From a virus: 22,880 nt of DNA. Where the stretch lies: positions 1 through 22,880 of IMG/VR virus record IMGVR_UViG_3300037189_031290; one strand, given 5' to 3'. Under the pieces are notes generated by a model. The model saw nothing but the letters and a program-made list of their open reading frames with translations. It was not told the DNA's origin and made no database searches. How positions within the stretch are numbered: the stretch's first letter is position 1; every line of letters begins with the position of its first letter. The position numbers and the translations under genes were made by a program. Below, piece by piece: positions 5,497 to 22,880 of this stretch.

Positions 5497-5914
5497 CTAT
5501 CACCTTTTCACCTTTGTTGCGCAATGCCTTGATCAAATCGTTGGTACTGCCAGCAAACACAATGTTGTTCTGTGTGCCAATCTGTTGTTGTTTTACTTCT
5601 TCAGGAGTCTGCAGTTCTTTTTTGGCCTTCTGCAGCGCCAGCAGATCCTTGGCAGTTTCTGCCACTGTCTTGATTAACTGTCCAGTGACTTCGAATGCTC
5701 GAGGGTGGTCACTTTGTGATGCCACTGACATCATGTTGTCCAGCGCAGTTTCCCCCTTGCTTACCAGACGACGCAGTGTTGCGCGCGCCATGTCAAAATC
5801 GTCCTGAACCTGCGGTGGGCTATCTGCTACCACAGCAGGTACAGTTGCCACTGCTGTTGGCGCAGTACCAAACTTATTGTCCAGAGCATTGAATGCATGT
5901 TTATCTTGTAACAT
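5465..5914 (-). CDS. gp16: Terminase small subunit gp16
   Basis: The 149-aa product is the probable small terminase that recognises DNA and regulates gp17. I chose ATG 5914 (MLQDKHAFNALDNKFG) because it resembles the start of other T4-like gp16 proteins; an ATG at 5962 would place 16 unlikely residues inside the upstream gene. The centre, about residues 38-105, is predicted helical and charged (DDFDMARATLRRL to LLALQKAKKELQ), matching the coiled-coil oligomerisation core of gp16. The end is a charged segment with NDLIKALRNKGEKVID. The start overlaps the upstream fibre gene by 14 bases and the end overlaps gp17 by 32. The Shine-Dalgarno is weak (GGGA), suggesting coupling. Identification rests on position, size and helical layout. 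Confidence 0.88.
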   Translation of the reverse strand: MLQDKHAFNALDNKFGTAPTAVATVPAVVADSPPQVQDDFDMARATLRRLVSKGETALDNMMSVASQSDHPRAFEVTGQLIKTVAETAKDLLALQKAKKELQTPEEVKQQQIGTQNNIVFAGSTNDLIKALRNKGEKVIDVQSSTQTQL

Positions 5915-7687: not shown

Positions 7688-8437
7688 TTAGAGCCCATTG
7701 TTTTCAACATAATTAAATGTATCCGTGGGCAAAGCATCCACTGGGTCGGTTGTTATATTGTATTTATCAAGTTGTTGATCAAAAGCAGGATCATTGAATA
7801 CATTGGCCACGGCTGAACGAATGATACTCTGTGACTCGGTGGGTCCATAGTAGTATAATTTCAGAGTAAATGTATAGGTCCAGATAATGGTGCGTCTGCT
7901 GTCAAGGTCGCCTTCGAAATCATCTTGAAATGTTACGCTGTTAAGGATGATGGGTAGGTCGTGTTTTATGCCCAGCTCCGGAATATAGTTTACGGTTACA
8001 TTGAAATCGGGATTGAACGCTGGTGCAATCTGTTCAAAGATCTGCAATCCGTCATCCTGATTTTTGGTATAACAGTACAGGTTCATGGTAATGTTATAGG
8101 GAGTGGGTCCATACACACGATTGGCCTTGGTCTGACTGGTAACCTGACTAAAAGAATTTACATTGTTGATTTTACGTGCGCCATCATATTCAAAAGAAAT
8201 TATCTCAAAACTCATGCGAGGAAGAATAACCTGTTTCTCTAGTTTGTCTGCGTCTGGCAGAGCCTGAATGCGTGCCAGCATTTTATTCTTTGCTGCATAG
8301 GCCAAGGGCACGCGCAGGGATTGAATAACATTGCCACCGGCATCGCGACGTCGCACTTCCAGATTGTTGAACATTACGCCAAAAGCAATGACTGCTCTGC
8401 GTGTTGTCTGATGATAGAACGTTTTTCCTTCAAACAT
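7688..8437 (-). CDS. gp15: Tail completion protein gp15
   Basis: The 249-aa product corresponds to T4 gp15 (272 aa), the hexameric terminator that caps the tail tube and sheath and joins the tail to the neck. It begins MFEGKTFYHQTTRRAVIAFG, followed by FNNLEVRRRDAGGNV and RVPLAYAAKNKML, matching the gp15 pattern of an N-terminal helix and the 'RVP-TYA-K' strand. ILPRMSFEIISFEYDGARK (about residues 70-88) and the later DSRRTIIWTYTFTLKLYYYGP are also typical. The ATG shares one base with the stop codon of gp14 (TAATG), indicating tight translational coupling. The function follows from family and synteny. Confidence 0.93.
   Translation of the reverse strand: MFEGKTFYHQTTRRAVIAFGVMFNNLEVRRRDAGGNVIQSLRVPLAYAAKNKMLARIQALPDADKLEKQVILPRMSFEIISFEYDGARKINNVNSFSQVTSQTKANRVYGPTPYNITMNLYCYTKNQDDGLQIFEQIAPAFNPDFNVTVNYIPELGIKHDLPIILNSVTFQDDFEGDLDSRRTIIWTYTFTLKLYYYGPTESQSIIRSAVANVFNDPAFDQQLDKYNITTDPVDALPTDTFNYVENNGL
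7761..7768 (-). promoter_or_regulatory. Possible late promoter (GATAAATA variant) for the 589-aa fibre gene
   Basis: The minus strand reads GATAAATA, one base from the T4 late consensus TATAAATA. It lies inside the last codons of gp15 (encoding DKY), 91 bases upstream of the fibre gene start at 7670. It is supported only by the similarity and by an identical variant before the 974-aa gene. Confidence 0.4.
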
Positions 8438-9201
8438 TATTGTACCGCCACTTCACCGAATGGGTTAATCTCTGTAAAATCTAGAATATCTATGGATGCC
8501 AATCTATTGAATTCTGAATTGTCCGCCTGTGGGTCGTTTTCTATGACATTAAAATCTTCATTTAATAATTTGCTGGCATCGCCATATAAAGTCGAGTCCA
8601 GCAGCAGTGCGTCGCCAGTCTCCAGCAGCATATCAAAGTTTTGCATGTCCATGCTGGAATCTTCGATCTTGTCAACATCGGCATTGCCAGTATTGAATTC
8701 TTCTGAACTATACTGGAACAATTCACAGCGTAGTTTGTAGACATATAATTTGCCCAGCTGATAGAATGGGTCCTGTGCTTCCACCATTTTGACTTCAAAA
8801 TAACTGTTGGTTAGTGGCATGTATAAAAGATCGCCTTCAGCCGGACGATTGGGCAGCTGTAAATAATTGCTGCGTCCCTGACCTACAACATCATCCCAGC
8901 GTGATCTGGCAACCACAAAGGTTGCCGTGTCTCGAATCTCTATGCCAAATTTTTGCATGAGCTGACCATCGCCACCATAGCCATCCACCTGTTCCAGATA
9001 GGCTTCTACTGGTATGGCATTTTCATATTTGCCGGCTGGATCTTCCAGGAATATGGTGTCGGTATTTACCTCACTGCGGGGCAGATAAAAGACATCAAAA
9101 CCATAGATTTTAATCGACTCAATGATCAGACTTTCAACCAGACGTTGCTCACCGGTACGACCGCCGGGTATGCCGCTCTGGAAGTAAAAATTGGTACTCA
9201 T
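8437..9201 (-). CDS. gp14: Neck protein gp14
   Basis: The 254-aa product matches T4 gp14 (256 aa), which with gp13 completes the neck and allows the tail to join the filled head. It opens MSTNFYFQSGIPGGRTGEQR, followed by VESLIIESIKIYGFDVFYLPR and a segment with IFLEDPAGKYENAIPVEAYL, the conserved gp14 N-terminal half. The middle has FGIEIRDTATFVVARSRWDD and GDLLYMPLTNSYFEVK, also characteristic. The C-terminal 70 residues are acidic and variable. It starts 3 bases after the gp13 stop with GGTGGG upstream, and its stop overlaps the gp15 start by one base. The 13-14-15 order is the same as in T4. Confidence 0.94.
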   Translation of the reverse strand: MSTNFYFQSGIPGGRTGEQRLVESLIIESIKIYGFDVFYLPRSEVNTDTIFLEDPAGKYENAIPVEAYLEQVDGYGGDGQLMQKFGIEIRDTATFVVARSRWDDVVGQGRSNYLQLPNRPAEGDLLYMPLTNSYFEVKMVEAQDPFYQLGKLYVYKLRCELFQYSSEEFNTGNADVDKIEDSSMDMQNFDMLLETGDALLLDSTLYGDASKLLNEDFNVIENDPQADNSEFNRLASIDILDFTEINPFGEVAVQ

Positions 9202-9204
9202 GTT

Positions 9205-10170
9205 TTATCCCACCATAAAGTTTGGGGGCTCGACATAGGTACTCTGCATTTCCTCTTCTAGGTATTTAATTTCTTCCACGGCTTCGTCATAGATCTTCTG
9301 ACCATTTAAAGTGACGCCGCCGGGCATCTGTATACCTTCAAACTTCTTCAGATTGGCTCCCCACTGACGTTTGATCAGGGCAGTGGCATATCTTTTAACA
9401 AATCTGTCGCCATAGACCTGTGGCCAGTCTGCAGGATCCAGAATACGATAAGCTTCAACAATGATGTATTCGCCAACACTGACATCGGTTTCCCAGTTCA
9501 TGTCAATGTAGATGCGGTCCATGTGACGCTGATAGCGGAAGCTCTTTTCGCCAACCAACAGCATGTCCAGCATGGCCAGATGTTGCTTGACCTGCTGATA
9601 GTAGATTAGGCTGGTGCTCATCAGGCTAAACATATCATTGAGACGCAGCTGATAGCGTATGTCCCACATATAGGCCTGGCCAGTATTGATGGCACTGAAG
9701 GGCAATACTCTGACCACCCCCAGCACACCGTCGGCTGTCTGAATATATTTTTTATCTACTACACCCAGGGAAATGGCAGTCATTGTTGAACTAAAGTTAG
9801 ATGATGCTCCAATAATGACTTCTGAACTGGCAAATGTTCCCTGAATATAGGCTACCAGCAGACTGGTGCCAGTACTGGAAGTCAAATTTTCATTGACCAC
9901 AGTTGCCTTGGCACCCGATGTCTGTCCAGTAATTATTTCGCCATTGGTAAAGTTTTGTGCAACCGAACTATTCAGGGTAATGCGGGTTGCAGTAACCTGC
10001 GTAGACAAGTAGATACGTTCTACTGCATCATAGTGATAGTCTCGGTAATAGGCAAAAGCTTCATCAATGCGATCAGAAACCTGGTCGTCATCCACGTTGA
10101 TTTCCACCACGGGATGACCCAGTTCTCTGAGGCAATAATCAATAAGACCTTGACGAGTTGTGACTGCCAT
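9205..10170 (-). CDS. gp13: Neck protein gp13 with an extra Gly/Ser/Thr-rich insert
   Basis: The 321-aa product is the gp13 neck protein, partner of gp14. Conserved parts are the N-terminus (LIDYCLRELGHPVVEINVDD then QVSDRIDEAFAYYRDYHYDA, residues 9-49) and the C-terminal half (GVVRVLPFSA at 151-160, YMWDIRYQLRLNDM at 167-180, GEYIIVEAYRILDP at 233-246, then YGDRFVKRYATALIKRQWG near 253-271). Total length is near that of T4 gp13 (about 309 aa). Residues about 62-136 look unlike the rest: they are Gly/Ser/Thr-rich with FTNGEIITGQTSGAKATV, a pattern common in phage surface proteins. The start is supported by AGGGAG upstream. It follows the 974-aa gene after 12 bases. Confidence 0.93.
   Translation of the reverse strand: MAVTTRQGLIDYCLRELGHPVVEINVDDDQVSDRIDEAFAYYRDYHYDAVERIYLSTQVTATRITLNSSVAQNFTNGEIITGQTSGAKATVVNENLTSSTGTSLLVAYIQGTFASSEVIIGASSNFSSTMTAISLGVVDKKYIQTADGVLGVVRVLPFSAINTGQAYMWDIRYQLRLNDMFSLMSTSLIYYQQVKQHLAMLDMLLVGEKSFRYQRHMDRIYIDMNWETDVSVGEYIIVEAYRILDPADWPQVYGDRFVKRYATALIKRQWGANLKKFEGIQMPGGVTLNGQKIYDEAVEEIKYLEEEMQSTYVEPPNFMVG
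9763..9987 (-). other. Beta-rich insert within gp13
   Basis: This segment encodes gp13 residues about 62-136. It contains NFTNGEIITGQTSGAKATV and, after about 40 residues, a looser echo (FASSEVIIGASSNFSSTM). 'NGE-ITG-TSGA-A-V' segments are frequent in virion surface proteins, so this may be a small decoration domain inserted between the N-terminal helices and the conserved core. Boundaries are judged by eye from composition. Confidence 0.5.
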
Positions 10171-10182
10171 TTTAACTCCCTG

Positions 10183-13107
10183 TTAGGCCTGTGCTTCTGT
10201 CCAGCTTAGACGCAGATTGGTAATAGTAGCCGCGGCAGCGTTGTTGTTTCTTACCACAATGGTTAAAATATCTGGTCCGTTGGGGAAGCCAGGTGTTCTT
10301 GCGCTACCATTACCACTGACAATACTGTTACCCAGATCGCGAACCTGACTAATGTCATAGGTATCGCCGGCAGCACCAGTAACGAAGCCAAAGATCTGTT
10401 CACCACCGGTAACCGTTGTTGTATTACCAGTATGGTCAATAATCTGCGCTAACGAACCTGAACCAATCTGAGTAACCACCGAAGTATAGGTCCAGGCATC
10501 GGGCAATACTGGATTGGTGGTACCACCAAAGGAACTTGGATTCAGAATACCCAGAACCTGCACCGAGGTTGACGCAACCAGACCCATGGAGCGCATCTGC
10601 AACTGCATGCGGTTAACAATTTCGCGAACACCAAACTGACCAGTAATACTGTTGTCAACACTTGGTGCCAATCTCACGCTCAGAACTGCGACACTTGTAC
10701 CTGCGGCAATGGTGGTAATAGATGTCTGACGAGCGTAGGCGAATTGAATGCTGCGGTCATCGTCATAGCCACCATCCATGATCACGCTGGTACCCCAGTG
10801 GTAAATATTTGGAGCACAAGTACAGCCCAGAAAGGTAACTGAAACAACCGAGCTGTTGCCAGCTGCTGCACCATCGTATTCTGTGGGAGTGAATGTTACG
10901 TTGGTTGATGTACCACCAAATGCTCGGCGATCCAGACCAGTTAAATTCCAACCAGATAATGCGCTGTTGTAGGCCTTGTTACCATAGCCCATGACTTCGG
11001 TTAGGTTGCCCTGCTGCACCAGAATGGCACCAGAACTTGGCCAGTATTGAGCATTGTCAACAACCATGGTCAGGTCGCTGCTGGCCAGATTCACACCATT
11101 GTTGGCAGTACTGCCAGAAATCATTCGGGCATAGGGACCAATGTTGTATACTTCATAGCGCGCAGGCAAGTTACCACTACGCATATAGGCCTGATTGTTC
11201 ACGTTGTTGTTGGCAATCTTGTGACAGTAGATAACATCGCCATTGGTCATTCGGAAGCCGAAGCGAATAAAGCCTGCACCATACCAGGTGTAGTCTATAT
11301 AGCACATCTGCATCTTGGTGATGTCTATATTATAGCCTGACGGACCAGTGCCGTCACATCGATCTAAATTCCATTCACTCTGTGGTACTCTGACGTTCTG
11401 GGTAATGTTGAATCTCAGCGAGGTTGTTGTACCAGGTCCGCGATAGGCTGGACTAATTTCCATGCTAGTGCCGCTGTCAATGGCAGTAACCAGATAACTT
11501 GAACCGCGAATGACGATATAATCACCGGGATTCATCTGTTTATGGAATTTGGTATTGGTACCTGTTACCGTGGTTGAACCAGTGGTAACACCAATGGTTC
11601 CCATGCCTTCTTTGATGCTATGACGACGAACTGCAAATATAGTGGAGCCGTCGTATTCATAGTAAAAGCCGTTTTGATTATCGAACATACCAACACGGCA
11701 GCTGGCACCAGTCCAATTCTCGACGCTGACCTGAGGATTAACACCGCCCGGCGCAGTATCTGTACTGCTGGTGGTCATGTTGTATTGCAGCACATTACCA
11801 TTGGAGGTTGCAAAGGTACAGGTAAATGTACCATTGTAGGGATTGGCAGCGCCGCGGTTAACCTCGATGCCTTCAACAATAAGTGTTACACCACTGGCAA
11901 TATTTAACTTCTGCTGTACTGCTATGGTTACTGATGTTCCTGCACTGGTTGTATAGTTGACATCAAAATGTGGTGTAAACTTGGAGCCGGTGCTCATCTG
12001 CATGCCCTTACCAGATTGGTAACGGAAATAACGTCGAGTCTGACGAATGGCAGTAATACCATCGTTCAGGTTTGTCGATGTAATCATGACACCACCATCG
12101 CTGGGGCGGTGCACAAAATTGGCTTCTGGACGAGTTACAACAACCACGCTACCTGAAGTTGGTGTTGTTGTGCCGGTCTGAAATCCCGGTGTTAATACGC
12201 GGAAACTGGTGGCAGATGGTATGTCGTATATCTGCCAAGAACCATTGAGCGTGGTTGTAGTTGCACTGTTGATAAGAATTGGCATGTTGGGTAACAGGCC
12301 ATGTTTACCAATGGTATTGATAGTTAAAATGCTGCCTGGGCTGGCAATGCCGTTGTCGGAACTAATAACGCCAGTAATAATGCGGGATAAAATGCTGCTG
12401 TTAGTATAGGTATCAAAGTAGGAACCGCCCTGAATAACTGTGGATGATAAAAATACACCGCCGTTGATCTGACCCTTGGATGTATAGGTAAAGGTGGTGG
12501 TGCTGGGTACTGTTGTAATAACAAACACACCATCGGCGTCATTGTTCGATGAATAGCTAACGTTGACCAGATCGCTGGTTACCAGACCATGTGCAATACC
12601 AGTTGTTACAGTCATCAATGAACGAGGTGTCTGATTACCACCAGACAGCGCGGTTACGTTGAGACTGTTACCACCGCCCTTGAAATAGTAGGAAGGAATG
12701 TTGTTACCCAACACCAGGCTTTCCCATTTAATGGGTTGCAGACCATATTCAAAGTCGGTATCGATCAGGGCCTGTGGAGCGGCTACGCGCAGTTTATTGG
12801 TTGCGTCGTGCGCTTCTTCGGTCCAGGTAACATCGTGGTAGGCAGTTTCTTCCAGGATCATCAGTGCATCTGATGAGCTGAAAGAACTGGTATCGTAGCT
12901 TAGTGTAAACCGGGTTCCTGTGCTGCTGTAGGGCGCAATAAAACTTGGAATGCCTAGATCTGGATCACTGAAGTTGTAGAGAATTGTATTGCTGGATGAG
13001 TGCACAACCAACACCACACTTTCTCTTCTAAGTATTCGGTTGGGTATTGTTACCGTCTTGGTAGACGGTGAGAACGTATAATATTCATTAAGTAGTCTTT
13101 TCGCCAT
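10183..13107 (-). CDS. Large multi-domain virion structural protein (974 aa)
   Basis: The protein has several recognisable phage structural segments and no enzyme motif. Residues 1-87 match an N-terminal domain recalled from cyanophage-type structural proteins (LLNEYYTFSP, then ILYNFSDPDLG at 42-52, then FTLSYDTSSFSSSDAL). Two copies of an 'HGL' beta domain follow at about 163-211 and 258-311. FRYQSGKGMQMSTG (361-374) and VGMFDNQNGFYYEYDGSTIFAVRR (472-495, given here as a span) form a core that continues at 587-651 with GTGPSGYNIDITKMQ, WYGAGFIRFGFRM and MRSGNLPARYEV. A 55-residue GSTTVTGTNTKF domain at about 503-557 interrupts it. AGGAGA stands 8 bases before ATG 13107. It sits just upstream of gp13, where T4 has short-tail-fibre and whisker genes, so a tail, baseplate or fibre location is likely. 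Confidence 0.75.
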   Translation of the reverse strand: MAKRLLNEYYTFSPSTKTVTIPNRILRRESVVLVVHSSSNTILYNFSDPDLGIPSFIAPYSSTGTRFTLSYDTSSFSSSDALMILEETAYHDVTWTEEAHDATNKLRVAAPQALIDTDFEYGLQPIKWESLVLGNNIPSYYFKGGGNSLNVTALSGGNQTPRSLMTVTTGIAHGLVTSDLVNVSYSSNNDADGVFVITTVPSTTTFTYTSKGQINGGVFLSSTVIQGGSYFDTYTNSSILSRIITGVISSDNGIASPGSILTINTIGKHGLLPNMPILINSATTTTLNGSWQIYDIPSATSFRVLTPGFQTGTTTPTSGSVVVVTRPEANFVHRPSDGGVMITSTNLNDGITAIRQTRRYFRYQSGKGMQMSTGSKFTPHFDVNYTTSAGTSVTIAVQQKLNIASGVTLIVEGIEVNRGAANPYNGTFTCTFATSNGNVLQYNMTTSSTDTAPGGVNPQVSVENWTGASCRVGMFDNQNGFYYEYDGSTIFAVRRHSIKEGMGTIGVTTGSTTVTGTNTKFHKQMNPGDYIVIRGSSYLVTAIDSGTSMEISPAYRGPGTTTSLRFNITQNVRVPQSEWNLDRCDGTGPSGYNIDITKMQMCYIDYTWYGAGFIRFGFRMTNGDVIYCHKIANNNVNNQAYMRSGNLPARYEVYNIGPYARMISGSTANNGVNLASSDLTMVVDNAQYWPSSGAILVQQGNLTEVMGYGNKAYNSALSGWNLTGLDRRAFGGTSTNVTFTPTEYDGAAAGNSSVVSVTFLGCTCAPNIYHWGTSVIMDGGYDDDRSIQFAYARQTSITTIAAGTSVAVLSVRLAPSVDNSITGQFGVREIVNRMQLQMRSMGLVASTSVQVLGILNPSSFGGTTNPVLPDAWTYTSVVTQIGSGSLAQIIDHTGNTTTVTGGEQIFGFVTGAAGDTYDISQVRDLGNSIVSGNGSARTPGFPNGPDILTIVVRNNNAAAATITNLRLSWTEAQA
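12175..12621 (-). repeat. Two 'HGL' domains in the 974-aa protein
   Basis: Residues 163-211 (SLMTVTTGIAHGLVTSDLV ... GVFVITTVPSTTTFTY) and 258-311 (GSILTINTIGKHGLLPNMP ... GSWQIYDIPSATSFRV) share the plan of a strand, HGL, a loop, 'NG/DG-(W/F)-I--(V/I)PS-T-F'. This is a common small beta domain in phage structural proteins. A weaker third version may occupy residues 392-443. Confidence 0.6.
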
Positions 13108-13110
13108 GAA

Positions 13111-13731
13111 TCAATCTCCTAGGACTATGGTATTCGGTGAAAGCGGATAGCGACTTCGGGTTTGTCGCGATGCTGATACTGTATTTATCCTAATTTCTGC
13201 GCTTTGACCAGACTTGGCTACATGGCTATAAAAGATAATTCTTGAGCCAGTAACCCGGTATGTGCGCGCTCTTTCAGCTACGTACAATGAAATCCAAGGT
13301 CCTAATGTTGTGGTTTGTGGGACGGCAGCATTAAACAGTTGCCCGCCAATTTGTACTGTAAAATCTTTGTTGTCAACGTAGTTTATGCCCTCGGTGATGG
13401 CAATTCGGTTATTCTTCAGTGTGAAGATTCTGCGATTTTGTGCGAACTGATTGGAAATATCGTCAAGTACAGTAATGCCTGTATTGCCGCTGCTGCTGGC
13501 CACAGTACCTGGTTGCCAGGCAGCACCACTCCAGACAATGGCTTGTCCAGTAGTAGGAGACGCACTACTGAAAGTGCGTCCACTGAGCTTGATAACTGTG
13601 GGGCTACTAGTACTTCCACCGATGTCTCCTCCGAGCTGAACTTTATTATTGTTCAGCTCGGAAAAGTTATTGTCTACTTCGGCACTAGTAAGCGGCGCAC
13701 CTTTTACGGCGCGCAACGTCAATGTTGCCAT
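13111..13731 (-). CDS. Small fibre-type structural protein (206 aa)
   Basis: Residues 1-30 (LTLRAVKGAPLTSAEVDNNF, SELNNNK) form the 'LT--EVD-NF--L' motif found at the N-terminus of many phage tail fibres. Next come QLGGDIGGSTSSPTVIKLSG and SASPTTGQAIVWSGAAWQPG (residues 32-75), the 'GGD-GGS---PTV--L-GR--SS--PTTGQ--VW-G-AW-PG' pattern also widespread in tail fibre and collar proteins. The C-terminal part has a long basic strand-rich region ending RTRSRYPLSPNTIVLGD-like residues, with no known receptor domain. The start has AAAGGTGG upstream; it lies 21 bases after the 175-aa gene and 3 bases before the 974-aa gene. The role as a fibre or adaptor is inferred from the motifs. Confidence 0.72.
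   Translation of the reverse strand: MATLTLRAVKGAPLTSAEVDNNFSELNNNKVQLGGDIGGSTSSPTVIKLSGRTFSSASPTTGQAIVWSGAAWQPGTVASSSGNTGITVLDDISNQFAQNRRIFTLKNNRIAITEGINYVDNKDFTVQIGGQLFNAAVPQTTTLGPWISLYVAERARTYRVTGSRIIFYSHVAKSGQSAEIRINTVSASRQTRSRYPLSPNTIVLGD
13182..13189 (-). promoter_or_regulatory. Possible late promoter (GATAAATA variant) for the 974-aa gene
   Basis: The minus strand reads GATAAATA near the 3' end of the 206-aa gene, 75 bases before the 974-aa start at 13107. It differs from the late consensus at the first base, like the site before the 589-aa gene. It lies in coding sequence, so chance is possible. Confidence 0.4.
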
Positions 13732-13752: not shown

Positions 13753-14280
13753 TTAAGAAACGGTGATGGTCCAAGTAATTTGCAAAGTGTCGTCGTTACC
13801 TTTGTTAACAGGGTTGAAGGTAGTGCGGCAAAGCATGGTACCACCACCAGAAGCCAACTGGTTAAAAATACCCGCTTCAGTAATAGCAGTGGTATTTGAA
13901 GTGTTGGTACGCTGTGGGTTGTTGGTTGCGAATGTAGCAACATAGGTAACAACACCGGTTGAAGCAGTTGCTGCACTGATGGTTGCACGAGCTGCACCAG
14001 CGATGTCACCGTTGGCTGTAACTTCAGCGCCCAGTGTGTTATCAGTGACTAATGCAGTGGTTGTGCTGGTACCAACGGCCATGGTAATCATACAGCTGGT
14101 GCCGGTGGCAGTTGTCAACGTGCCTGCAGTTGTACCAAGAATACGAGTGGCAATGTAGTTTTTACCAGATTGTACAACCAGGTTGGGAATATAGCGAGTT
14201 TCTTTGAGCTCGCCGCTAGGACCAAATAGCTTAAGGTCAAGGCTGCCTTTTAGCTTGGTATTTTCTTTATGATCGATCAT
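13753..14280 (-). CDS. Conserved phage structural protein of the 'EAGIF...TMLCRTTF' type (175 aa)
   Basis: I chose ATG 14280 (MIDHKENTKLKGSLDLKL) because AAGGAG lies 9 bases before it; the ATG at 14337 would start inside the giant gene with no such site. The N-terminus has KLFGPSGELKETR and NLVVQSGKNYIATRILG (residues 17-49). The centre has MAVGTSTTTALVTDNTLGAE. The C-terminus has ITEAGIFNQLASGGGTMLCR then TTFNPVNKGNDDTLQITWTI (residues 133-172). This combination resembles a small domain family seen near tail fibre genes in many phages, function unproven. It follows the giant repeat gene after 16 bases and probably shares its late transcript, although an exact late promoter box also lies 112 bases upstream. 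Confidence 0.75.
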   Translation of the reverse strand: MIDHKENTKLKGSLDLKLFGPSGELKETRYIPNLVVQSGKNYIATRILGTTAGTLTTATGTSCMITMAVGTSTTTALVTDNTLGAEVTANGDIAGAARATISAATASTGVVTYVATFATNNPQRTNTSNTTAITEAGIFNQLASGGGTMLCRTTFNPVNKGNDDTLQITWTITVS

Positions 14281-14296: not shown

Positions 14297-14626
14297 TTAA
14301 GTGAATGAACGCTTCTCGCCGACAAAATCATCTTCAAAATAATCTATGTCGGCATAGTCTGTCATGCGCAGATTTCCATTACTGGCTACGGTATTTATAT
14401 TTCCGTTCAGGTCAAGATCGCCAGAGTTATCGAACAGTCTTAACGGGAATACTACATTTATCACCAATAAATCGGTGATTTCCATGGAATCCACCTTGGG
14501 GCTGAAGAAATTCAGGTTCATGAATTCCACGCCCTCGCCCAGCATGGTTAAATCGTCGCTGATGCCGCCTTTTTGCCCATAAAGAGCAGTACGATCCAAG
14601 ATGGTGGTGGATGTTTCTGTGAATGG
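14297..14626 (-). other. Unique C-terminal cap of the giant protein
   Basis: These 109 codons share no cassette with the rest. The segment has DDLTMLGEGVEFMNLNFF, VDSMEITDLLVINVVFPLRL, SGDLDLNGNINTVASNGNL and a final acidic/aromatic DYADIDYFEDDFVGEKRSF. Such a non-repeat end could close the fibre or bind another virion part. Confidence 0.6.
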
Positions 14627-17600
14627 TTTATAGAGATTGATGACAAATGATTCCAGGGCGTCACCGCTGACACGCTTGCCCTGATTGCCCTGCCAGCTTT
14701 GTTGACCCAGGAATACACGGTCACGATCGCGGGCTCGAACTGTTGTGCTGCTCAGCGTTGTTGTAGTGCCGGTTCCCTGCTTGGCATCCAAGGAGAACAG
14801 CAGATCAGCGTCATTGGTATCTATGGTAACAATGGCGCCAGTGGTGCCTGCTACATCTCGATCAAAATTGGTTTTGGTGATGGTAAATTTAACAGTTTCC
14901 GATGTATTCTCTGATGCCTGGTAGCGGAAACCATAGTTGTTGCCAGCTCCGGCTACCACGAATGATACTGAACTGCCGGCTCCGTCCTGATCTGCACTCT
15001 TGGCAACTGTAAATAAGATTCTTTCCTGGCTATCACCAGAGTTACGTTTTCCTCCAGTATTGCCCTGCCAGCTCTGCTGACCCACGAACAGACGGTCACG
15101 ATCGCGAGCCGTAACAGTTACGCCACTGACTGTGTAGGTTACCGATGTATTGAATCCATTGACCTTGGCATCCAGACTAAACAAGAATGGTATGGTTTCT
15201 AGCAAACTGCCAGCAACCTTGACGCCAGTGCTGGATCCAAAGCCCATGGTCAGCGCCTCGCGTTTCAACATGGTGGTGTTGTAGACCAGGCCGTCGTACA
15301 CTTCAGTCAAATCCAACATGGCGGTTGTATCACCCAACAGCTTGCCAATCACAAAGGTGGTCCATTCTGCGTTGCTTTGGGTTCTTTGATTGCGGAAACC
15401 AGTGTCAGTACCTATGGTAATGGTTTCTGCGTTGAATCTGTTGATTACATAGTATAGGTTGAAGAAGTCCAGCATACCAACTTCATCCAACTGCCAATCG
15501 CCACGGCTGACCGTTACCGAGCTCTGCTGATATTCAACGTCGGGATTGGGGTCAATGGTGTTCAGTGTAACGTTGCCGGCCACGCCGCGCTTGGCAGTTT
15601 TAATATAAGTAAATGCTGGATTGTCCAGACTGTCGCCGGAGCGGCGTTCTGGATAGGTCTGGCTGGTGTTATTGCGACCCAGCGTGACGATGGCGCCAGT
15701 TGTTCCAGGAACATCAAAGTCGAATCTGGACTTGGTGACAGTGAATTTAACGGTCTCTGATGTGTTCTCACTAGCTTGATATCTAAATCCATAGTTGTCG
15801 CCAGCGCCAGCAACAACAAATGCCGTTGAACTACCTAAACCGTCAGCATCCGCTGCTTTGCTAACTGTGTAGAAGATGCGTTCCTGACTGTCGCCAGCAT
15901 TGCGTCTGCTAGTATTGCCTTGCCAGGTCTGTTGACCAACCACCACGCGATCTCTGTCTCGGGCAGTAACTGTTGATCCGCTGACAGTATAGGTTACCGA
16001 TGTTGCAGCAGCACCGTTAATCTTGGCATCCAGACTAAACTGGAATGCTGGGTTATCTAAACTGTCACCACTACGACGTTCTGGATAGGCTACCGATGTT
16101 GTTCCTCTACCTATGGTCAGCGCCTCACGCTTGATCATGGTGGTGTTGTAGACCAGACCGTCATATACCTCGGTCAGATCCAGCATAATGGTACCGTCAT
16201 CCTGACCCAGACGTTTACCTATGGTAAACTTAACTGTCTCAGATGTGTTCTGACTTGGTTGATAGCGGAAGCCGGTATCGGTACCAATGGTAATGGTATC
16301 ATTGGTAATACGACCAATAAAAATTAACGAATTGAAACTATCAATGATACCAACGATATCTGGTTGCCAAGATTGATAGCTTAGCAAAATAGAACTGTCG
16401 CTAGCATTGGGACCATCAATGTTCTTGAATGAATAATTTCCAACTGTACCTGCTTTGGCAGTCAATCTAACATCAAAGTTGGTTTGTTCTAATAAACTTC
16501 CAGATACACGTCCACCAGTACTGCTACCAAAACCCATGGTAACAATGGCACCGGTTGTTCCAGGAACATCAAAGTCGAATCTGGCTTTGGTGATGGTAAA
16601 TTTAACAGTTTCTGAGGTGTTCTCTGATGCCTGGTAGCGGAAACCATAGTTGTTGCCAGCTCCGGCTACCACAAATGCAGTGGAGCTGCCAACACCGTCG
16701 GCATCGGCCGCCTTGTTGACGGTATAGAAGATACGTTCCTGACGATCGCCGGCATTACGAATAGCTGTGTTGCCCTGCCAGGGTTGTTGACCAACAAATA
16801 TACGATCTCGGTCGCGAGCCAGTACTGTTACGCCACTGACGGTATATGTTTCGCTTAAACGGCCAGCCTTGGCATCCAGACTAAACAAGAATGGTATGGT
16901 TTCTAGCAAACTACCAGCAACCTTGACGCCAGTGCTTGAACCGAATCCAATGGTTAGGTTTTCACGTTCCAGCATTGTCGATGAATATGTCAGATTATCG
17001 TACAGGTCTGTACTATCCAACATTGTAGTGCCTTCGCCGGTAATGGCAGCGTCGAATGGATGACCTCCATATCGTCCCAGATTCTTACCAATGGTAAATC
17101 TAACTGTCTCGGATGTGTTTTGGCTAGACTGATAACGGAAGCCTAAATCAGTACCTATGGTAATTGCATCATTGACACTTCTACCAGTAGCAGCAAATGC
17201 CGAGAAGAAGTCAACAATACCAACAACGTCGTAATCGTAGTCCTGATAGGTTACTGCGGCTGAACTTTGGAATCCATTGCCGTCGGTAGGATCGATTAGT
17301 TTTAATGTAACTGTTCCTGTGACGCCACGGTTAGCGCGCATGCCAAACAAGAATGCTGGGTTATCTAAACTGTCGCCGGAGCGGCGTTCTGGATAGGTCT
17401 GGTTAGTTGATTCACGACCCATGATAACAATGGCACCAGTTGTACCTGCTACGTCCTTGTCAAATCTGGACTTGGTAATGGTAAACTTGACGGTCTCAGA
17501 ACTATTTTCATATTGCTGATATCTAAATCCATAGTTGTCGCCTGCACCAACTACAACATAGGCAATTGAACTTCCTGCACCGTCGGCATCGGCTTTCTTA

Positions 17601-20600
17601 CCCACAGTGAATAGGATGCGTTCCTGACCGTCTCCAGCGTTTCTAAATCCGCCGATGTTACCTTGCCAGCTCTGCTGACCAACAAATACACGATCTTTAT
17701 CTCGGGCTGTAATTGTTGTGCTGCTGACAGTATAGGTTACCGATGTTGCAGCAGCACCGTTAATCTTGGCATCTAAACTAAACTGGAATGCCGGATTGTC
17801 TAAACTATCGCCACTACGACGTTCTGGATAAGTGACCGAACTGGTACCGCGACCCAGAGTAATCAGCGATCCCGATGTACCAAATGAACTGTCAACTCTG
17901 GATTTGGTTACATTGAATTTGGTGGCCTCACCAACTAGATTGCTGCCAGTGTCAAATAAACCGCCGGTGCGCGCACGCCCGGTTAAATCGCCGTAGCCTA
18001 TGACAGCATAGCTTGTACTGCCGTCATATTCGGTGGCTCGTTTGCCTATGGTAAACTTAACAGTCTCTGATGTGTTCTCGCTGGACTGATAACGGAAGCC
18101 GTTGTCTGTACCAATTAAGATTGAATCCAGGAACGCACGACCTGTGCCAATCATCTGTACAAACATGAAGTCTACGGCACCAACTACATCATAGTCCCAG
18201 TCCTGATAGGTTACTGCAGCCGAACTCTGGCCAGCATCACCATTGATTGGATCAATCAATTTCAATGTAACAGTACCAGTCACGCCACGGTTGGCACGCA
18301 TGCCATACAAGAACGCTGGATTGTCCAGACTATCTCCACTACGACGTTCTGGATAGGTCTGGCTGGTTGATTCACGACCCATGACAACAATGGCGCCAGT
18401 GGTGCCTGCTACATCACGATCAAATCTGGACTTGGTAATGACAAATGTCATACCTTCACCACTGACAATGTTGAGAAATGCATTGATTGTTGGACCAGTT
18501 CTTGGTCTCTCGGTCAAATCACCGTAGCCAATGGTTGTTAAATCGGGGTTAGTTGGATTGGCAAATTTACCTAGGGTGTAGAAAATACGTTCCTGTGTGT
18601 CACCAGAGTTACGTCGACCGCCAGTGTTACCTTGCCAGCTCTGCTGACCAACGAATATGCGATCTCGGTCGCTGGCCGTAACTGTTGTGCCACTCACAGT
18701 GTTGGTGGTTGATGAACCTTGCTTGATATCCTTATAAACATCAAAGGGAATATTCTCCAGCAGGCTTCCTGTGACTTTAACGCCGGTGCTGGATCCAAAA
18801 CCCATGATCTGAGTTTCACGTTTCAGTATTGTCGAATTGTATACCAACCCATCATAGACTTCAGTCAGGTCCAGCATGGCTGTATCATCGCCCAACAGCT
18901 TGCCAATCAGGAATGTAGTAAATTCCAGTCTAGATTCTGTGGGCTGTGTTCTAATTCCAGTGGCAGTGCTGGACAATCCAATGGTGACAAAATCCTGATC
19001 TATGGTGCGGGTAATCTGATAGAACAGATTGAATCTATCCAACATACCAACTTCATCCAGTTGCCAATCGCCACGACTTATGGTAACTGAACTAACAAAG
19101 AACTCAACGTCTGGATTGGGATCAATGGTGTTCAGTGTAACGTTACCAGCAACACTGCGTTTGGCCGTCTTGATAAAGTTGAATGGAATATTTTCCAGCA
19201 AACTTCCTGATACACGAGATCCAGTGCTGCTACCAAAACCCATGATAACAATGGCACCAGTTGTTCCAGGAACATCAAAGTCGAATCTAGATTTGGTAAC
19301 AGTGAACTTAACTGTCTCCGACGTATTTTCCGATGCCTGATAGCGGAAGCCATAGTTGTTGCCTGCACCAATAACTACGAACGATACTGAACTACCAGCT
19401 CCGTCACTGTCAGCTTTCTTGCCCACCGTAAATAAAATTCTTTCCTGGCTGTCGCCGGCATTTCTAAATCCGCCAGTGTTACCTTGCCAGCTCTGCTGGC
19501 CAACATATACTCTGTCACGATCTCGAGCCGTGACTGTTGTGCCACTCAGTGTATAAGTTACTGAGGTGGCGGCCGCAAAGTTAATCTTGGCATCCAGACT
19601 AAACTGGAATGCTGGATTGTCCAAGCTATCGCCGCTGCGGCGCTCTGGGAATGCTACCGATGTTGTGCCACGACCCAGGATAACACGACTTGTTGTTCCG
19701 TCATAAAGTTTAGCCAGCTTGGTAATATTAAAGAATGTTGTTTCACCATATAAATTATTATTAATATCAACAGTTAATGTACCAACGCGTGATCTTTCAA
19801 TTAAATCTCCCCAACCAATTTGAGCATAGCTGGTTGTGCCGTCATATTCCTTGGCAAACTTACCAATGGTGAATTTGGTGTTTTCCAGACTTGACTGACT
19901 TGGTTGATTGCGGAAGCCGGTATCAGTGCCAATGGTAAGTAAATCAAAAATGCTACGACCAGTCGCTGCAACCGCCGACATAAAGTCAATTGATCCAACT
20001 ACATCATAATCCCAGTCCTGATAGGTTACTGCGGCTGAACTATTAAACCCATTGCCGTCAGTGGGATCAATTAATTTCAATGTAACCGTACCTGTGACAC
20101 CCCGGTTGGCTCTTAACCCATACAAGAAGGCCGGATTGTCTAAACTATCACCGGAGCGGCGTTCTGGGTATGTCACTGAACTGGTACCCCGACCCATGGT
20201 AACCAATGCACCAGTGGTGCCTGCTACATCGCGATCAAATCTGGCTTTACTTACTGTGAAGAAAGTCTTTTCATTGGCATAGCCCAGACGATCGTCAACA
20301 CCGCTACCGGCAACCGCCAGGGTTTGAACGCTGGTGTCTCGGGCATTGCCCAATCTTGCACTAATGGTGAATAAAATTCTTTCCTGTGGATCATTGGCAA
20401 ATCTGGTTGTGCCATACTGCTGACCAACAAATAGTCGATCTGTGTCGCCGGCAGTAACTGTGTTGCCGCTGAAGGTAATTGTGTTGCCGCTGTACTCGGC
20501 TGCCTTGACAACATCAAAGCTGACTCTTTCTGTGGCACCACTCTTGGTACGAGCCGGGAATGTCTGACTGGTTTGTCCACTGCTGATAATTTGTGTATCT

Positions 20601-22880
20601 GCCTTGTACAGAGCAGACGTATAAACCAGACCGTCGTATACCTCGGTCAGATCCAGCATGGCGGTTGTATCGCCCAACAACTTGGTAATCAAGAACTTGA
20701 TATTTTCTGTGGTTGTCTGACGCTGATCGATGCCACTGCCTAAAGTCAGGTATTCGTCGAACTGACGATACAGCATGTAATAGATGCTGAAATAATCCAG
20801 GGTACCAACTGCATCGCTGTCCCAGGCATTGGCAGTTACTGCAACCGAACTTTGTTGCCATTCAACATCGGGATTGGGATCAATGGTGTTGAGTAACAGT
20901 GTGCCGGCAACACCACGACGGGCAGACTTGGTAAACTGAATTGTTTTAACGTCACCCGATGTATAGATCAGATGATGACTGGTGGTTGGATTGTCATCTG
21001 GGAAGACACGCTTGGTTACCAGTTTAAATGCTCTTTCCAGGGGTTCAACATACTTGTCAAAGGCGCCTGAATTGCCCAGATAATCTGCGTGCCAGGGATA
21101 ACGAACGAATGTACGAACATCGTTGATACCGCCAAATACACCAACAACATCGGTGTCAGGTGCGGTAAAGGTTACCACCGCTGCACTTACATAACCATTG
21201 TTGCCATCAATAAACTGTAGCAATGGCAGTGTGGTTGATGCCCCGCGCTTGGCAGTTAAACCATATTGAACACTGACATTTTCTGTCTGGTTACCTGATC
21301 GGCGCAGAGGATGTACACCGCGGAATGGATCGCCCAGGACAACCAGGTCACGCGATCTCGCCAGGTTGGTGACCGAAGATGCATTGATGAATCCTGTGAT
21401 TGTGGTATCGACACTCTGCTTGGCATCCAGACCAAAGGTCAGGGCGGCATCGTTGTCTAGCAGGGTGACTATGGCACCAGTAGTTCCAGGTACGTCAAAG
21501 TCAAATCTGGACTTGGTTACGGTAAAGAAGGTTCTTTCAGACAATGCTGAACGTCGATCTTCTCCACTACCAACAATGATAATTGTGTTGGATGATCCAG
21601 CTCCACCTATGCCCGTGGTCTTGAAGAAGTCCTTGGCTGGATATGGACTGAATCTGCTGTTGTCGGTAACGGTGAACAGGTCAAATACACCACGACCAGG
21701 TGCCACTATCAGATCATCCAACAGAGTGACTATGGCGCCGGTGGTGCCGGGAACATCTTTGTCGAATAGTGTCTTAAAGACGGCAAAGGTTGTTTTTTCT
21801 GTGGTGTAGAACAGGCGGTCGTCGACCCCACTACCAATGGTGATGCTATCAATGGGAGAACGTGAAACGCCAAAGGCCATCCACCATCTGTCGGCCATAC
21901 CAATGGCATCAAGGTCACTGGGACCATAGGTCAATGTAACCGACGATGCATTCCACTCAAAGTCGGGATCGCGGTCAATGGTATTGACACTGATGCTCCA
22001 GGTAACACTGGATCCGGCCTTGGCAGTCTTGAAGAAATTAAAGCCAACATTTTCAGCCTGTGCGCCGCTGCGGCGCAATGGATATACACCCTGCAGTGGA
22101 TCGCCAACATAGATGCGTTCTCCGCGGGCACCAGCAGTAGCGGCAAAGCTGGAATTGTTGATATAACCAGACCAGGTGTTATTGACACCCTGCAATGCCA
22201 ACTTGGTGATGTCAAACTTGGTTGATTCACCAACAAATTCATTACCAAAGAATCCAAGACCAGAGAGACGACCAATACGAGGTCTTTCAACAAGATCGCC
22301 AAAGCCAATAATTGCTATAGTTGGATCATAAACACCAAAAGAAGTTCCCGGGGTTTTAATAAAGGTAAACTTGGTATTTTCTAGACTAGACTCTGATGGT
22401 TGGAAACGACGGCCGTTATCGCTGCCAATGGTTACAACGGTGTTCGCAGAACCTGCGCCACCCAGACCGGCGGTCTTGAAGAAGCTGAATGGAATTCGTT
22501 CTAGCTGACTACCTGAAACTTTGATGCCTGTGCTTGAACCAAAACCAATTATAGTTGTTTCTTGTTTCTGAATTGTAACATTGGAATTTAAACCGTCAAA
22601 GATGCCGGTGAGATCTAGCATTGGAACAATGTCGGCCAAGCCTTTATTGAAGAAGAAGCGAGTCCATTCCAGACTTGATTCTGTGGGCTGATAACGGAAG
22701 CCGGTGTCGGTACCAATGGTAATAAAGTCTTCAGGTCTGCGGGTAATCTGATAGAATAGATTGAATCTATCCAACATACCAACCATGTCCATGTCTTTGG
22801 GACCATAGGTTATTGTTACCGAGCTGGCCTGGAATTCAATGTCTGGGCTAGGGTCAATGGTGTTGAGCTGTACTGTCCAG
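14297..22880 (-). CDS. Giant repeat-built virion/fibre protein, N-terminus outside the window
   Basis: The frame is open from the right edge (22879) to TAA at 14297, at least 2860 codons. The ATG at 22792 is internal: codons before it read LNTIDPSPDIEFQASSVTI, which matches the repeat header seen nine more times. The protein has ten blocks opened by an IDP/SSVT header, each with short glycine-containing cassettes ending 'E---F---K'. I see no enzyme motif, no cysteine-rich or membrane segment. A unique acidic cap of about 110 residues ends DYFEDDFVGEKRSF, similar to a 'YF-EDYVG--R-F' ending I recall from cyanophage-type structural proteins. It occupies the place of T4 genes 10-12/wac, upstream of gp13. 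A long beta-rich fibre or tail filament is the likeliest role, but function is inferred from composition and position only. Confidence 0.8.
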   Translation of the reverse strand, partial: WTVQLNTIDPSPDIEFQASSVTITYGPKDMDMVGMLDRFNLFYQITRRPEDFITIGTDTGFRYQPTESSLEWTRFFFNKGLADIVPMLDLTGIFDGLNSNVTIQKQETTIIGFGSSTGIKVSGSQLERIPFSFFKTAGLGGAGSANTVVTIGSDNGRRFQPSESSLENTKFTFIKTPGTSFGVYDPTIAIIGFGDLVERPRIGRLSGLGFFGNEFVGESTKFDITKLALQGVNNTWSGYINNSSFAATAGARGERIYVGDPLQGVYPLRRSGAQAENVGFNFFKTAKAGSSVTWSISVNTIDRDPDFEWNASSVTLTYGPSDLDAIGMADRWWMAFGVSRSPIDSITIGSGVDDRLFYTTEKTTFAVFKTLFDKDVPGTTGAIVTLLDDLIVAPGRGVFDLFTVTDNSRFSPYPAKDFFKTTGIGGAGSSNTIIIVGSGEDRRSALSERTFFTVTKSRFDFDVPGTTGAIVTLLDNDAALTFGLDAKQSVDTTITGFINASSVTNLARSRDLVVLGDPFRGVHPLRRSGNQTENVSVQYGLTAKRGASTTLPLLQFIDGNNGYVSAAVVTFTAPDTDVVGVFGGINDVRTFVRYPWHADYLGNSGAFDKYVEPLERAFKLVTKRVFPDDNPTTSHHLIYTSGDVKTIQFTKSARRGVAGTLLLNTIDPNPDVEWQQSSVAVTANAWDSDAVGTLDYFSIYYMLYRQFDEYLTLGSGIDQRQTTTENIKFLITKLLGDTTAMLDLTEVYDGLVYTSALYKADTQIISSGQTSQTFPARTKSGATERVSFDVVKAAEYSGNTITFSGNTVTAGDTDRLFVGQQYGTTRFANDPQERILFTISARLGNARDTSVQTLAVAGSGVDDRLGYANEKTFFTVSKARFDRDVAGTTGALVTMGRGTSSVTYPERRSGDSLDNPAFLYGLRANRGVTGTVTLKLIDPTDGNGFNSSAAVTYQDWDYDVVGSIDFMSAVAATGRSIFDLLTIGTDTGFRNQPSQSSLENTKFTIGKFAKEYDGTTSYAQIGWGDLIERSRVGTLTVDINNNLYGETTFFNITKLAKLYDGTTSRVILGRGTTSVAFPERRSGDSLDNPAFQFSLDAKINFAAATSVTYTLSGTTVTARDRDRVYVGQQSWQGNTGGFRNAGDSQERILFTVGKKADSDGAGSSVSFVVIGAGNNYGFRYQASENTSETVKFTVTKSRFDFDVPGTTGAIVIMGFGSSTGSRVSGSLLENIPFNFIKTAKRSVAGNVTLNTIDPNPDVEFFVSSVTISRGDWQLDEVGMLDRFNLFYQITRTIDQDFVTIGLSSTATGIRTQPTESRLEFTTFLIGKLLGDDTAMLDLTEVYDGLVYNSTILKRETQIMGFGSSTGVKVTGSLLENIPFDVYKDIKQGSSTTNTVSGTTVTASDRDRIFVGQQSWQGNTGGRRNSGDTQERIFYTLGKFANPTNPDLTTIGYGDLTERPRTGPTINAFLNIVSGEGMTFVITKSRFDRDVAGTTGAIVVMGRESTSQTYPERRSGDSLDNPAFLYGMRANRGVTGTVTLKLIDPINGDAGQSSAAVTYQDWDYDVVGAVDFMFVQMIGTGRAFLDSILIGTDNGFRYQSSENTSETVKFTIGKRATEYDGSTSYAVIGYGDLTGRARTGGLFDTGSNLVGEATKFNVTKSRVDSSFGTSGSLITLGRGTSSVTYPERRSGDSLDNPAFQFSLDAKINGAAATSVTYTVSSTTITARDKDRVFVGQQSWQGNIGGFRNAGDGQERILFTVGKKADADGAGSSIAYVVVGAGDNYGFRYQQYENSSETVKFTITKSRFDKDVAGTTGAIVIMGRESTNQTYPERRSGDSLDNPAFLFGMRANRGVTGTVTLKLIDPTDGNGFQSSAAVTYQDYDYDVVGIVDFFSAFAATGRSVNDAITIGTDLGFRYQSSQNTSETVRFTIGKNLGRYGGHPFDAAITGEGTTMLDSTDLYDNLTYSSTMLERENLTIGFGSSTGVKVAGSLLETIPFLFSLDAKAGRLSETYTVSGVTVLARDRDRIFVGQQPWQGNTAIRNAGDRQERIFYTVNKAADADGVGSSTAFVVAGAGNNYGFRYQASENTSETVKFTITKARFDFDVPGTTGAIVTMGFGSSTGGRVSGSLLEQTNFDVRLTAKAGTVGNYSFKNIDGPNASDSSILLSYQSWQPDIVGIIDSFNSLIFIGRITNDTITIGTDTGFRYQPSQNTSETVKFTIGKRLGQDDGTIMLDLTEVYDGLVYNTTMIKREALTIGRGTTSVAYPERRSGDSLDNPAFQFSLDAKINGAAATSVTYTVSGSTVTARDRDRVVVGQQTWQGNTSRRNAGDSQERIFYTVSKAADADGLGSSTAFVVAGAGDNYGFRYQASENTSETVKFTVTKSRFDFDVPGTTGAIVTLGRNNTSQTYPERRSGDSLDNPAFTYIKTAKRGVAGNVTLNTIDPNPDVEYQQSSVTVSRGDWQLDEVGMLDFFNLYYVINRFNAETITIGTDTGFRNQRTQSNAEWTTFVIGKLLGDTTAMLDLTEVYDGLVYNTTMLKREALTMGFGSSTGVKVAGSLLETIPFLFSLDAKVNGFNTSVTYTVSGVTVTARDRDRLFVGQQSWQGNTGGKRNSGDSQERILFTVAKSADQDGAGSSVSFVVAGAGNNYGFRYQASENTSETVKFTITKTNFDRDVAGTTGAIVTIDTNDADLLFSLDAKQGTGTTTTLSSTTVRARDRDRVFLGQQSWQGNQGKRVSGDALESFVINLYKPFTETSTTILDRTALYGQKGGISDDLTMLGEGVEFMNLNFFSPKVDSMEITDLLVINVVFPLRLFDNSGDLDLNGNINTVASNGNLRMTDYADIDYFEDDFVGEKRSFT
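14392..14399 (-). promoter_or_regulatory. T4-type late promoter box within the end of the giant gene
   Basis: The minus strand reads exactly TATAAATA, encoding part of GNINTVA in the C-terminal cap of the giant protein. It lies 112 bases upstream of the 175-aa gene. A late promoter here would let the three small structural genes and gp13-gp15 be transcribed without the very long repeat gene. Confidence 0.6.
14627..15568 (-). repeat. Block 10 of giant protein, leading into the C-terminal cap
   Basis: Header NTIDPNPDVEYQQSSVT, GTDTGFRNQ unit, MLDLTEVYDGLVY, GFGSSTGVKVAGS, GQQSWQGN, NYGFRYQASENTSETVKFT and DVAGTTGAIV. The last slot is a short TNDADLLFSLDAK piece, followed by an extra divergent GQQSWQGN cassette whose end (SGDALESFVINLYK) joins the cap. 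Confidence 0.85.
15569..16432 (-). repeat. Block 9 of giant protein
   Basis: Header KNIDGPNASDSSILLSY (divergent), GTDTGFRYQ unit, MLDLTEVYDGLVY, PERRSGDSLDNPAF, GQQTWQGN, NYGFRYQASENTSETVKFT, DVPGTTGAIV and a second PERRSGDSLDNPAF cassette; 288 codons. Confidence 0.85.
16433..17308 (-). repeat. Block 8 of giant protein
   Basis: Header LKLIDPTDGNGFQSSAAVT, GTDLGFRYQ unit, a divergent MLDSTDLYDNLTY cassette with a 10-20-residue insert, GFGSSTGVKVAGS, GQQPWQGN, NYGFRYQASENTSETVKFT, DVPGTTGAIV and a second GFGSSTG cassette. Confidence 0.85.
17309..18268 (-). repeat. Block 7 of giant protein
   Basis: Header LKLIDPINGDAGQSSAAVT, GTDNGFRYQSSENTSETVKF unit, GYGDLTGRARTG, PERRSGDSLDNPAF, GQQSWQGN, NYGFRYQQYENSSETVKFT, DVAGTTGAIV and a second PERRSGDSLDNPAF cassette; 320 codons, the longest complete block. 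Confidence 0.85.
18269..19138 (-). repeat. Block 6 of giant protein
   Basis: Header NTIDPNPDVEFFVSSVT, GLSSTATGIRTQ unit, MLDLTEVYDGLVY, GFGSSTGVKVTGS, GQQSWQGN, GYGDLTERPRTG, DVAGTTGAIV and TYPERRSGDSLDNPAF cassettes; 290 codons. Confidence 0.85.
19139..20083 (-). repeat. Block 5 of giant protein
   Basis: Header LKLIDPTDGNGFNSSAAVT, GTDTGFRNQ unit, GWGDLIERSRVG cassette, PERRSGDSLDNPAF, GQQSWQGN, NYGFRYQASENTSETVKFT, DVPGTTGAIV and GFGSSTGSRVSGS cassettes. It is the first block, in transcription order, with the complete eight-slot plan. Confidence 0.85.
20084..20896 (-). repeat. Block 4 of giant protein
   Basis: Header NTIDPNPDVEWQQSSV, GSGIDQR unit, MLDLTEVYDGLVY cassette, a SGQTSQTFPARTKSGATER cassette, a degenerate GQQ cassette (VGQQYGTTRFANDPQER), a GSGVDDR unit, DVAGTTGALV connector and the first TYPERRSGDSLDNPAF cassette. 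Confidence 0.8.
20897..21223 (-). repeat. Block 3 of giant protein, shortened and divergent
   Basis: The 109-codon block keeps the header plan (FIDGNNGYVSAAVVT ... DTDVVG) but lacks the standard cassettes. In their place is an aromatic segment with RYPWHADYLGNSGAFDK and VEPLERAFKLVTK. Confidence 0.65.
21224..21991 (-). repeat. Block 2 of giant protein
   Basis: Header NTIDRDPDFEWNASSVT, then GSGVDDR and GSGEDRR units, each followed by the DVPGTTGAIV connector, an unusual acidic LLDDLIVAPGRG segment between them, and a closing VLGDPFRGVHPLRRSG cassette. It shares the PLRRSG ending only with block 1. Confidence 0.75.
21992..22880 (-). repeat. Block 1 of giant protein (partial at right edge)
   Basis: Header NTIDPSPDIEFQASSVT ... 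DMVGMLD, then GTDTGFRYQ unit, a divergent MLDLTGIFDGL cassette, a GFGSSTGIKVSGS cassette, a GSDNGRRFQ unit, a long GFGDLVERPRIG cassette and a VGDPLQGVYPLRRSG cassette. It is at least 879 bases long and differs from blocks 5-10 in lacking the GQQ and PERRSGD cassettes. Confidence 0.8.

Follow-up and report, generated by a model that had tools for sequence, protein, structure and literature searches.

A giant two-level repeat protein of a T4-like phage as a candidate host-contact fibre of a widespread cassette family

The stretch of viral DNA analysed here (IMG/VR record IMGVR_UViG_3300037189_031290, 22,880 nucleotides; hereafter the window) carries on its minus strand a frame that remains open for 2,860 codons and ends in a stop (14297–22879 in the ORF list), and the question raised by this locus is what such a protein is built from and what it may do for the phage. 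No start codon was found at the right edge and the first visible residues ('WTVQLNTIDPSPDIEF...') fall in the middle of a repeat header; because the record ends at 22,880 bases, the 5' end of the giant gene is missing. The first-pass annotation had read the right edge as cutting through a header and the true length as greater than 2,860 codons; the opening of the frame inside a header agrees with the former, and the absence of a start in the window together with full-length relatives of 2,113–4,792 aa agrees with the latter. The features of the window are as follows.

14297–22879, minus strand: giant repeat protein gene, 3' part; 2,860 codons and a stop, 5' end beyond the record
22007–22876, minus strand: block 1 (aa 2–291), LNTIDP-type header (header HMM i-Evalue 1e-20)
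21233–22006, minus strand: block 2 (aa 292–549), header i-Evalue 4e-10
20912–21232, minus strand: block 3, short (aa 550–656), degenerate header, i-Evalue 0.007
20099–20911, minus strand: block 4 (aa 657–927), header i-Evalue 2e-30
19154–20098, minus strand: block 5 (aa 928–1242), header found by HMM; 69% aa identity with block 7
18284–19153, minus strand: block 6 (aa 1243–1532), header found by HMM
17324–18283, minus strand: block 7 (aa 1533–1852), header found by HMM
16442–17323, minus strand: block 8 (aa 1853–2146), header found by HMM
15584–16441, minus strand: block 9 (aa 2147–2432), header found by HMM
14627–15583, minus strand: block 10 (aa 2433–2751), header found by HMM
14300–14440, minus strand: conserved C-terminal tail (aa 2814–2860), end 'INTVASNGNLRMTDYADIDYFEDDFVGEKRSFT'; relatives in 69 IMG/VR loci
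13753–14280, minus strand: phrog_5417 protein, 175 aa, ATG at 14280 after AAGGAG; phrog_5417 E 2e-18, obtained with the longer 194-aa ORF
13111–13731, minus strand: 206-aa protein, start 'MATLTLRAVKGAPLTSAEVDNNF' (ORF list); third place of the module
10183–13107, minus strand: 974-aa virion structural protein, phrog_5838; ~37% identity to S-PM2p175 and S-RIM32 homologues
7688–10170, minus strand: T4-like neck and tail-completion genes gp13, gp14 and gp15 (Pfam and PHROG matches)

Repeats at two levels, with ten blocks of mostly 255–320 aa, had been claimed from the letters alone. A header profile made from six copies recovered ten, at aa 2, 292, ~553, 657, 928, 1243, 1533, 1853, 2147 and 2433 (i-Evalues 7e-32 to 0.007), and zero copies from the shuffled or reversed giant. 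With nominal starts, the blocks are 290, 258, 107, 271, 315, 290, 320, 294, 286 and 317 aa long; the count of ten held, and the third block, with only 107 aa, is the short one. An HMM of the ~40-residue cassette gave 33–34 matches in the window giant and zero on its shuffled and reversed copies, bearing out the second level of repeats as well. The closing motif E/D-xxx-F-x-h-x-K/R was observed 30 times against 0.75 expected, a count reached by 0 of 300 shuffles, which upholds the closing 'E-x-x-x-F-x-h-x-K' of the cassette outline first proposed; the strict first strand 'h-h-G-G' of that outline did not stand, as the strand oftener reads 'h-x-h-G' or 'hhhGxG' (ITIG, VVAGAG, TMGFG). Self-matches cover 87% of the giant, with top lags of 285, 607 and 925.

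The best pair of window blocks shares 69% protein identity, DNA identity between blocks reaches a maximum of 69%, and the four-fold degenerate sites are 40–58% identical in most block pairs. Because the protein is shared while these sites have mostly diverged, the repeat copies are old and not an assembly artefact; they diverged long ago with the protein pattern kept. Two cassette types (GFGSSTG.. and ..PERRSGD..) fill two slots as PERR/GFG in block 5, GFG/PERR in block 6, PERR/PERR in block 7 and GFG/GFG in block 8, and by the four-combination argument the presence of all four implies that cassettes were shuffled or converted between blocks. The 'blocks' of the window look like a local, partly shuffled level of organisation. 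We consider the chance negligible that the giant itself is an artefact of assembly, with repeats collapsed or expanded. Repeats do perturb assembly in the relative G002, where the orthologue is split into two frames (L091:16795–16904); ~190 bases of repeat are absent at the break in comparison with the 99% identical contig L179, which is open across the split. Because L179 has these additional repeat bases, the break looks like an assembly collapse, and short-read data may therefore undercount the repeats, in the window as well. The window blocks, however, differ at at least 31% of residues and mostly at 42–62% of the compared four-fold sites, and independent contigs hold full-length open frames of 2,113–4,792 aa; both observations argue against an artefact.

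The window giant gave no convincing match in Pfam, PHROG, NCBIfam, the PDB or named phages, consistent with the earlier statement that the repeat belongs to no named family. Nothing meaningful was returned by tblastn of the whole giant, its last 431 aa or its last 116 aa against named phages, PDB sequence searches gave no match, and no homology was found to structural proteins of the cyanophages S-PM2, S-RIM32 and S-RSM4. No fibre, collar or S74 model of Pfam, PHROG or NCBIfam matched the window giant, nor did the phrog_384 profile. Hits of TraK_N (1e-4) and phrog_153 (4e-6) were rejected, as no single stretch passes the limit and both lie within repeats, and Pfam matches were rejected for scores under the curated cut-offs. 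No account of the cassette family was found in the literature consulted about DUF4815 and about phage fibres that are long and repetitive. Two AlphaFold2 monomer predictions reached pLDDT 39.9 and 30.5, too low for a usable model, and the strands in the former were all short; intertwined fibres for which few aligned sequences exist can give such low monomer confidence.

Direct IMG/VR scans with the giant produced pattern matches and zero confirmed relatives, and a header scan matched G049 only. Relatives were reached from gp15 homologues in IMG/VR, which led to G002, whose syntenic gene has a tail 68% identical to that of the window over 47 aa, and then through a three-sequence alignment of the C-terminal tails, which found 69 loci in IMG/VR. 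Full-length syntenic orthologues are 2,906 aa (L099/G049), 2,621 aa (L098/G048), 2,113 aa (L100/G050) and 4,792 aa (G047) long, and a further one of 2,251 aa (L168) was reached via the partner gene; G047 is the closest to the window giant (45% identity over ~300 aa, E 1e-57). The long orthologues have in common an N-terminal segment, IN(K/R)I.RS.SSLVTLAELQSGS, and orthologues end in 'LRMTDYADIDYFAEDYVG.SRTF'. The chain runs from an N-terminal segment conserved among relatives through a string of cassettes to the C-terminal tail that ends it. Inserts in orthologues match Laminin_G_3 (9e-8), Reelin_subrepeat-B (1e-13 and 1e-22) and Gly_rich_2 (8e-7), and no Peptidase_S74 or Pfam fibre-tip model was found in the orthologues searched.

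The gene order in G002 is a gp6-type gene, genes of ~2,000 aa and 485 aa, a DUF4815/phrog_358 gene (2,671 aa), the repeat giant, phrog_5417, a 'KGSPLTN..LDDNF' protein, phrog_5838 and gp13–gp20, and the window agrees with it from the giant onward, holding the 175-aa phrog_5417 protein, the 206-aa protein and the 974-aa phrog_5838 protein between the giant and gp13. The gene upstream of the giant encodes a large protein in G002, where it matches DUF4815/phrog_358, and also in G047, G048, G049 and L168. L168 has one more gene, of 112 aa (L168:2896–3231), after the DUF4815-type gene and before the giant; it matches phrog_3304 (6e-24), which stands for 'L-shaped tail fiber protein assembly', and weakly Pfam LtfC. 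The minus strand of the window further encodes the T4-like late genes gp13 (321 aa), gp14 and gp15, both terminase subunits, small and large, and genes that we take, from position and our own reading, to be sheath, tube and portal. The window terminase is ~48% identical to those of cyanophages and equally to that of Caulobacter phage Cr30, and so points to no single host.

Some neighbouring genes vary among the relatives. The gp13 protein (9205–10170) has 321 aa in the window, ~326 aa in some relatives and 250 aa in L007 and L098, and the extra stretch weakly matches phrog_358 as well as PHROGs of baseplate wedges and tail fibres, which suggests a small inserted beta domain. A 589-aa protein between gp15 and gp16 (5901–7670, start 'MSYQSINLGTPNNNDGDSLYAGGAKINGNF') weakly matches the N-terminus of T4 gp9/10 and is present also in L007, L012, L015 and L018; we know of no T4 counterpart at this place. 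L018, whose gp15 is 62% identical, lacks the giant: upstream of its genes for phrog_5417 and phrog_5838 (L018:1–2722) it has a frame of 701 codons and a gene with the start 'MARIVQHRRGTTAEVAGITGAAGELFVDT', as though a swap of host-recognition genes had taken place.

The window matches the consensus of the tail alignment, GxLRMTDYADIxYFxxDYVGxxRxF, which marks a cassette family ending in a YFAEDYVG tail that is defined here and had no earlier name. The same tail ends proteins of about 140–700 aa in other phages, the smallest having 139 codons from stop to stop (L137). A phrog_5417 homologue lies directly downstream in all 43 of the 43 loci found by the tail alone, a set that includes several near-duplicate contigs, and the window likewise has its phrog_5417 gene (13753–14280) next downstream. 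The third gene of the module, after phrog_5417, typically encodes a 'KGSPLTN.ELD.NF' protein, and in L115 a 1,877-aa fibre with a Peptidase_S74 end. The short relative encoded at L115 matches the last 72 positions of phrog_384 at 6e-5, and siphophage homologues match this profile in full. Among Achromobacter phages, the siphophage ART has the trio after its tape measure gene, with the third gene annotated 'tail fiber', and SE2 has a third gene annotated 'putative collar'; in both, a phrog_384 protein with the C-terminal tail and a small partner gene precede this fibre or collar gene. In a SU10-like podophage, the repeat gene comes after a SU10-type adaptor. In SU10, gp11 is the adaptor and gp12 the proximal long tail fibre (PMC9509320), and by analogy the repeat gene may occupy the proximal long tail fibre position. 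A scan of cellular genomes with the tail gave one record, Janthinobacterium sp. CG3 (L166, NZ_KB467826.1), which carries this module of three genes, probably as part of a prophage.

The short homologues, most of about 220–700 aa, show sharp peaks at lags 18, 36 and 54, and a lag of 18 also peaks in the N-terminal parts of L100, L097 and G047 and is among the top lags in L099. Relative to shuffles, the spacing K-xxx-D-xxxxx-D/E is enriched 4–22 times, both in the short homologues and in the N-terminal parts of these long orthologues; the window giant has 6 matches against 3.6 expected, and lag 18 is among its top lags, barely above the mean. An 18-residue HMM from the short proteins gave no significant match to the giants, for which these periodicity tests replaced it. 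The long orthologues combine 18-residue cassettes, window-type cassettes and inserted domains, and the visible window giant consists almost wholly of window-type cassettes. The K-xxx-D-xxxxx-D spacing is retained in the window cassette 'KLLGDTTAMLDLTEVYDGLVY', which has counterparts in orthologues ('KNLADFVVPQDLAGVFDGITY'), and on this ground the 40-residue cassette can be read as an 18-residue one with an enlarged loop. As judged from periodicity, the basal unit of the wider family is the 18-residue cassette, of which the 40-residue cassettes of the window would be elaborated forms.

What the giant does was considered from its surroundings. In T4-like cyano- and pelagimyophages, the island from VrlC to gp14 has been named the host recognition cluster (PMC7029224). 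The orthologues in G002, G047, G048 and G049 lie between VrlC/DUF4815 and gp13/gp14, where the equation of DUF4815/phrog_358 with VrlC rests on an annotated BUCT-ZZ01 protein with a similar N-terminus, and the window shows the gp13/gp14 side of this location. Because of this position, the module, the inserted lectin-like domains and the length variation, the best reading is that the giant is a modular fibre-like protein of the tail or baseplate contacting the host cell, to which we give a probability of about 0.7. Counted against it are that the giant has no direct match to any characterised fibre, that neither it nor the orthologues searched gave a Peptidase_S74 or Pfam fibre-tip match, that the structure predictions were of too low confidence to support a shaft, and that PHROGs lists phrog_384, which contains short homologues, under head and packaging.

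The same surroundings could house an extended fibre or whisker at the neck or baseplate with a structural role alone, either T4 wac-like or a spacer, which would carry other fibres and bind no host; we regard this as unlikely but not negligible. On the T4 map gp10–gp12 and wac lie between the baseplate genes and gp13, no binding domain was recognised in the visible giant, and the shorter homologues consist largely of cassettes and carry no known module for binding; but same-locus orthologues carry modules of lectin-like, Reelin-like and Gly-rich type, and both length and content differ widely, which would not suit a spacer of fixed size. The PHROG category of phrog_384 and the nearby neck genes would fit a decoration fibre attached to the capsid or head, a placement that is improbable given that in siphophage ART the homologous module is flanked by the tape measure gene and the tail fibre gene, and that it comes after baseplate-type genes in T4-like relatives. 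Still less credible is an internal, ejected or non-virion protein: very large phage proteins can be ejected, such as the 3,398-aa virion RNA polymerase reported for phage DEV, but the giant has short Thr/Gly/Ser-rich cassettes and no enzymatic domain, and the surroundings of structural genes are conserved across three virion types.

In a host-contact fibre, the N-terminus would dock onto the baseplate and the cassettes would be beta-hairpins stacked into a long shaft, probably as an oligomer. Variable loops and inserted modules may touch sugars of the host surface, the C-terminal tail may cap the shaft or join partner proteins, and recombination among cassettes would alter both length and binding surface. 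We give about even odds to the wider proposal of an unnamed class of host-contact fibres of 18-residue cassettes, spanning about 140 to 4,800 aa and sharing one C-terminal tail and one partner gene, that would grow, shrink and reshuffle by recombination in T4-like myophages, siphophages and SU10-like podophages; the window giant would be its two-level elaboration, with enlarged cassettes in duplicated mosaic blocks. From sequence, the giant is a putative fibre-type phage protein, unusually large and with repeats at two levels, in a widespread unnamed cassette family.

A huge and otherwise unannotatable gene of an aquatic phage is in this way tied to a widespread three-gene module of presumed host contact, and its repeat now has a defined unit, ends and a partner gene. 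If the shaft model is true, one architecture covers lengths that differ roughly 35-fold, and the cassette mosaic is a testable route by which phages may alter reach and specificity. The C-terminal tail, the N-terminal motif and the cassette profile provide search signatures for annotating such genes.

Among known systems, the nearest catalogued group is phrog_384. Its proteins in SE2 and ART resemble the giant in that segments of the 18-residue type lead into the shared C-terminal tail ('ADYVDDSYFAESYVGYSVSF' in SE2), and that downstream lie a small partner gene, assigned to phrog_5417 in ART, and next a gene for a fibre or collar. They differ in their size of 341–357 aa, other N-terminal domains and few cassettes. 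The proteins of the host recognition cluster (PMC7029224; S-PM2p175–p177) share with it the niche between VrlC/DUF4815 and gp13/gp14 and the phrog_5838 neighbour, whereas S-PM2p176 and p177 and their S-RIM32 and S-RSM4 counterparts have no similarity to it (best BLASTP E 0.32). T4 gp34/gp37, gp12 and the Peptidase_S74 fibres would be alike in the proposed role and in a presumably beta-rich repetitive build, but the giant has no Pfam, PHROG or PDB sequence match to them, and in the giant and the orthologues searched no chaperone of the S74 kind was found. The tandem BACON repeats reported for crAss-like phages (PMC6949934) are likewise those of a tandem-repeat phage protein in which repeats evolve as units; BACON is a named domain, whereas the repeat of the giant is unnamed, shorter and organised at two levels.
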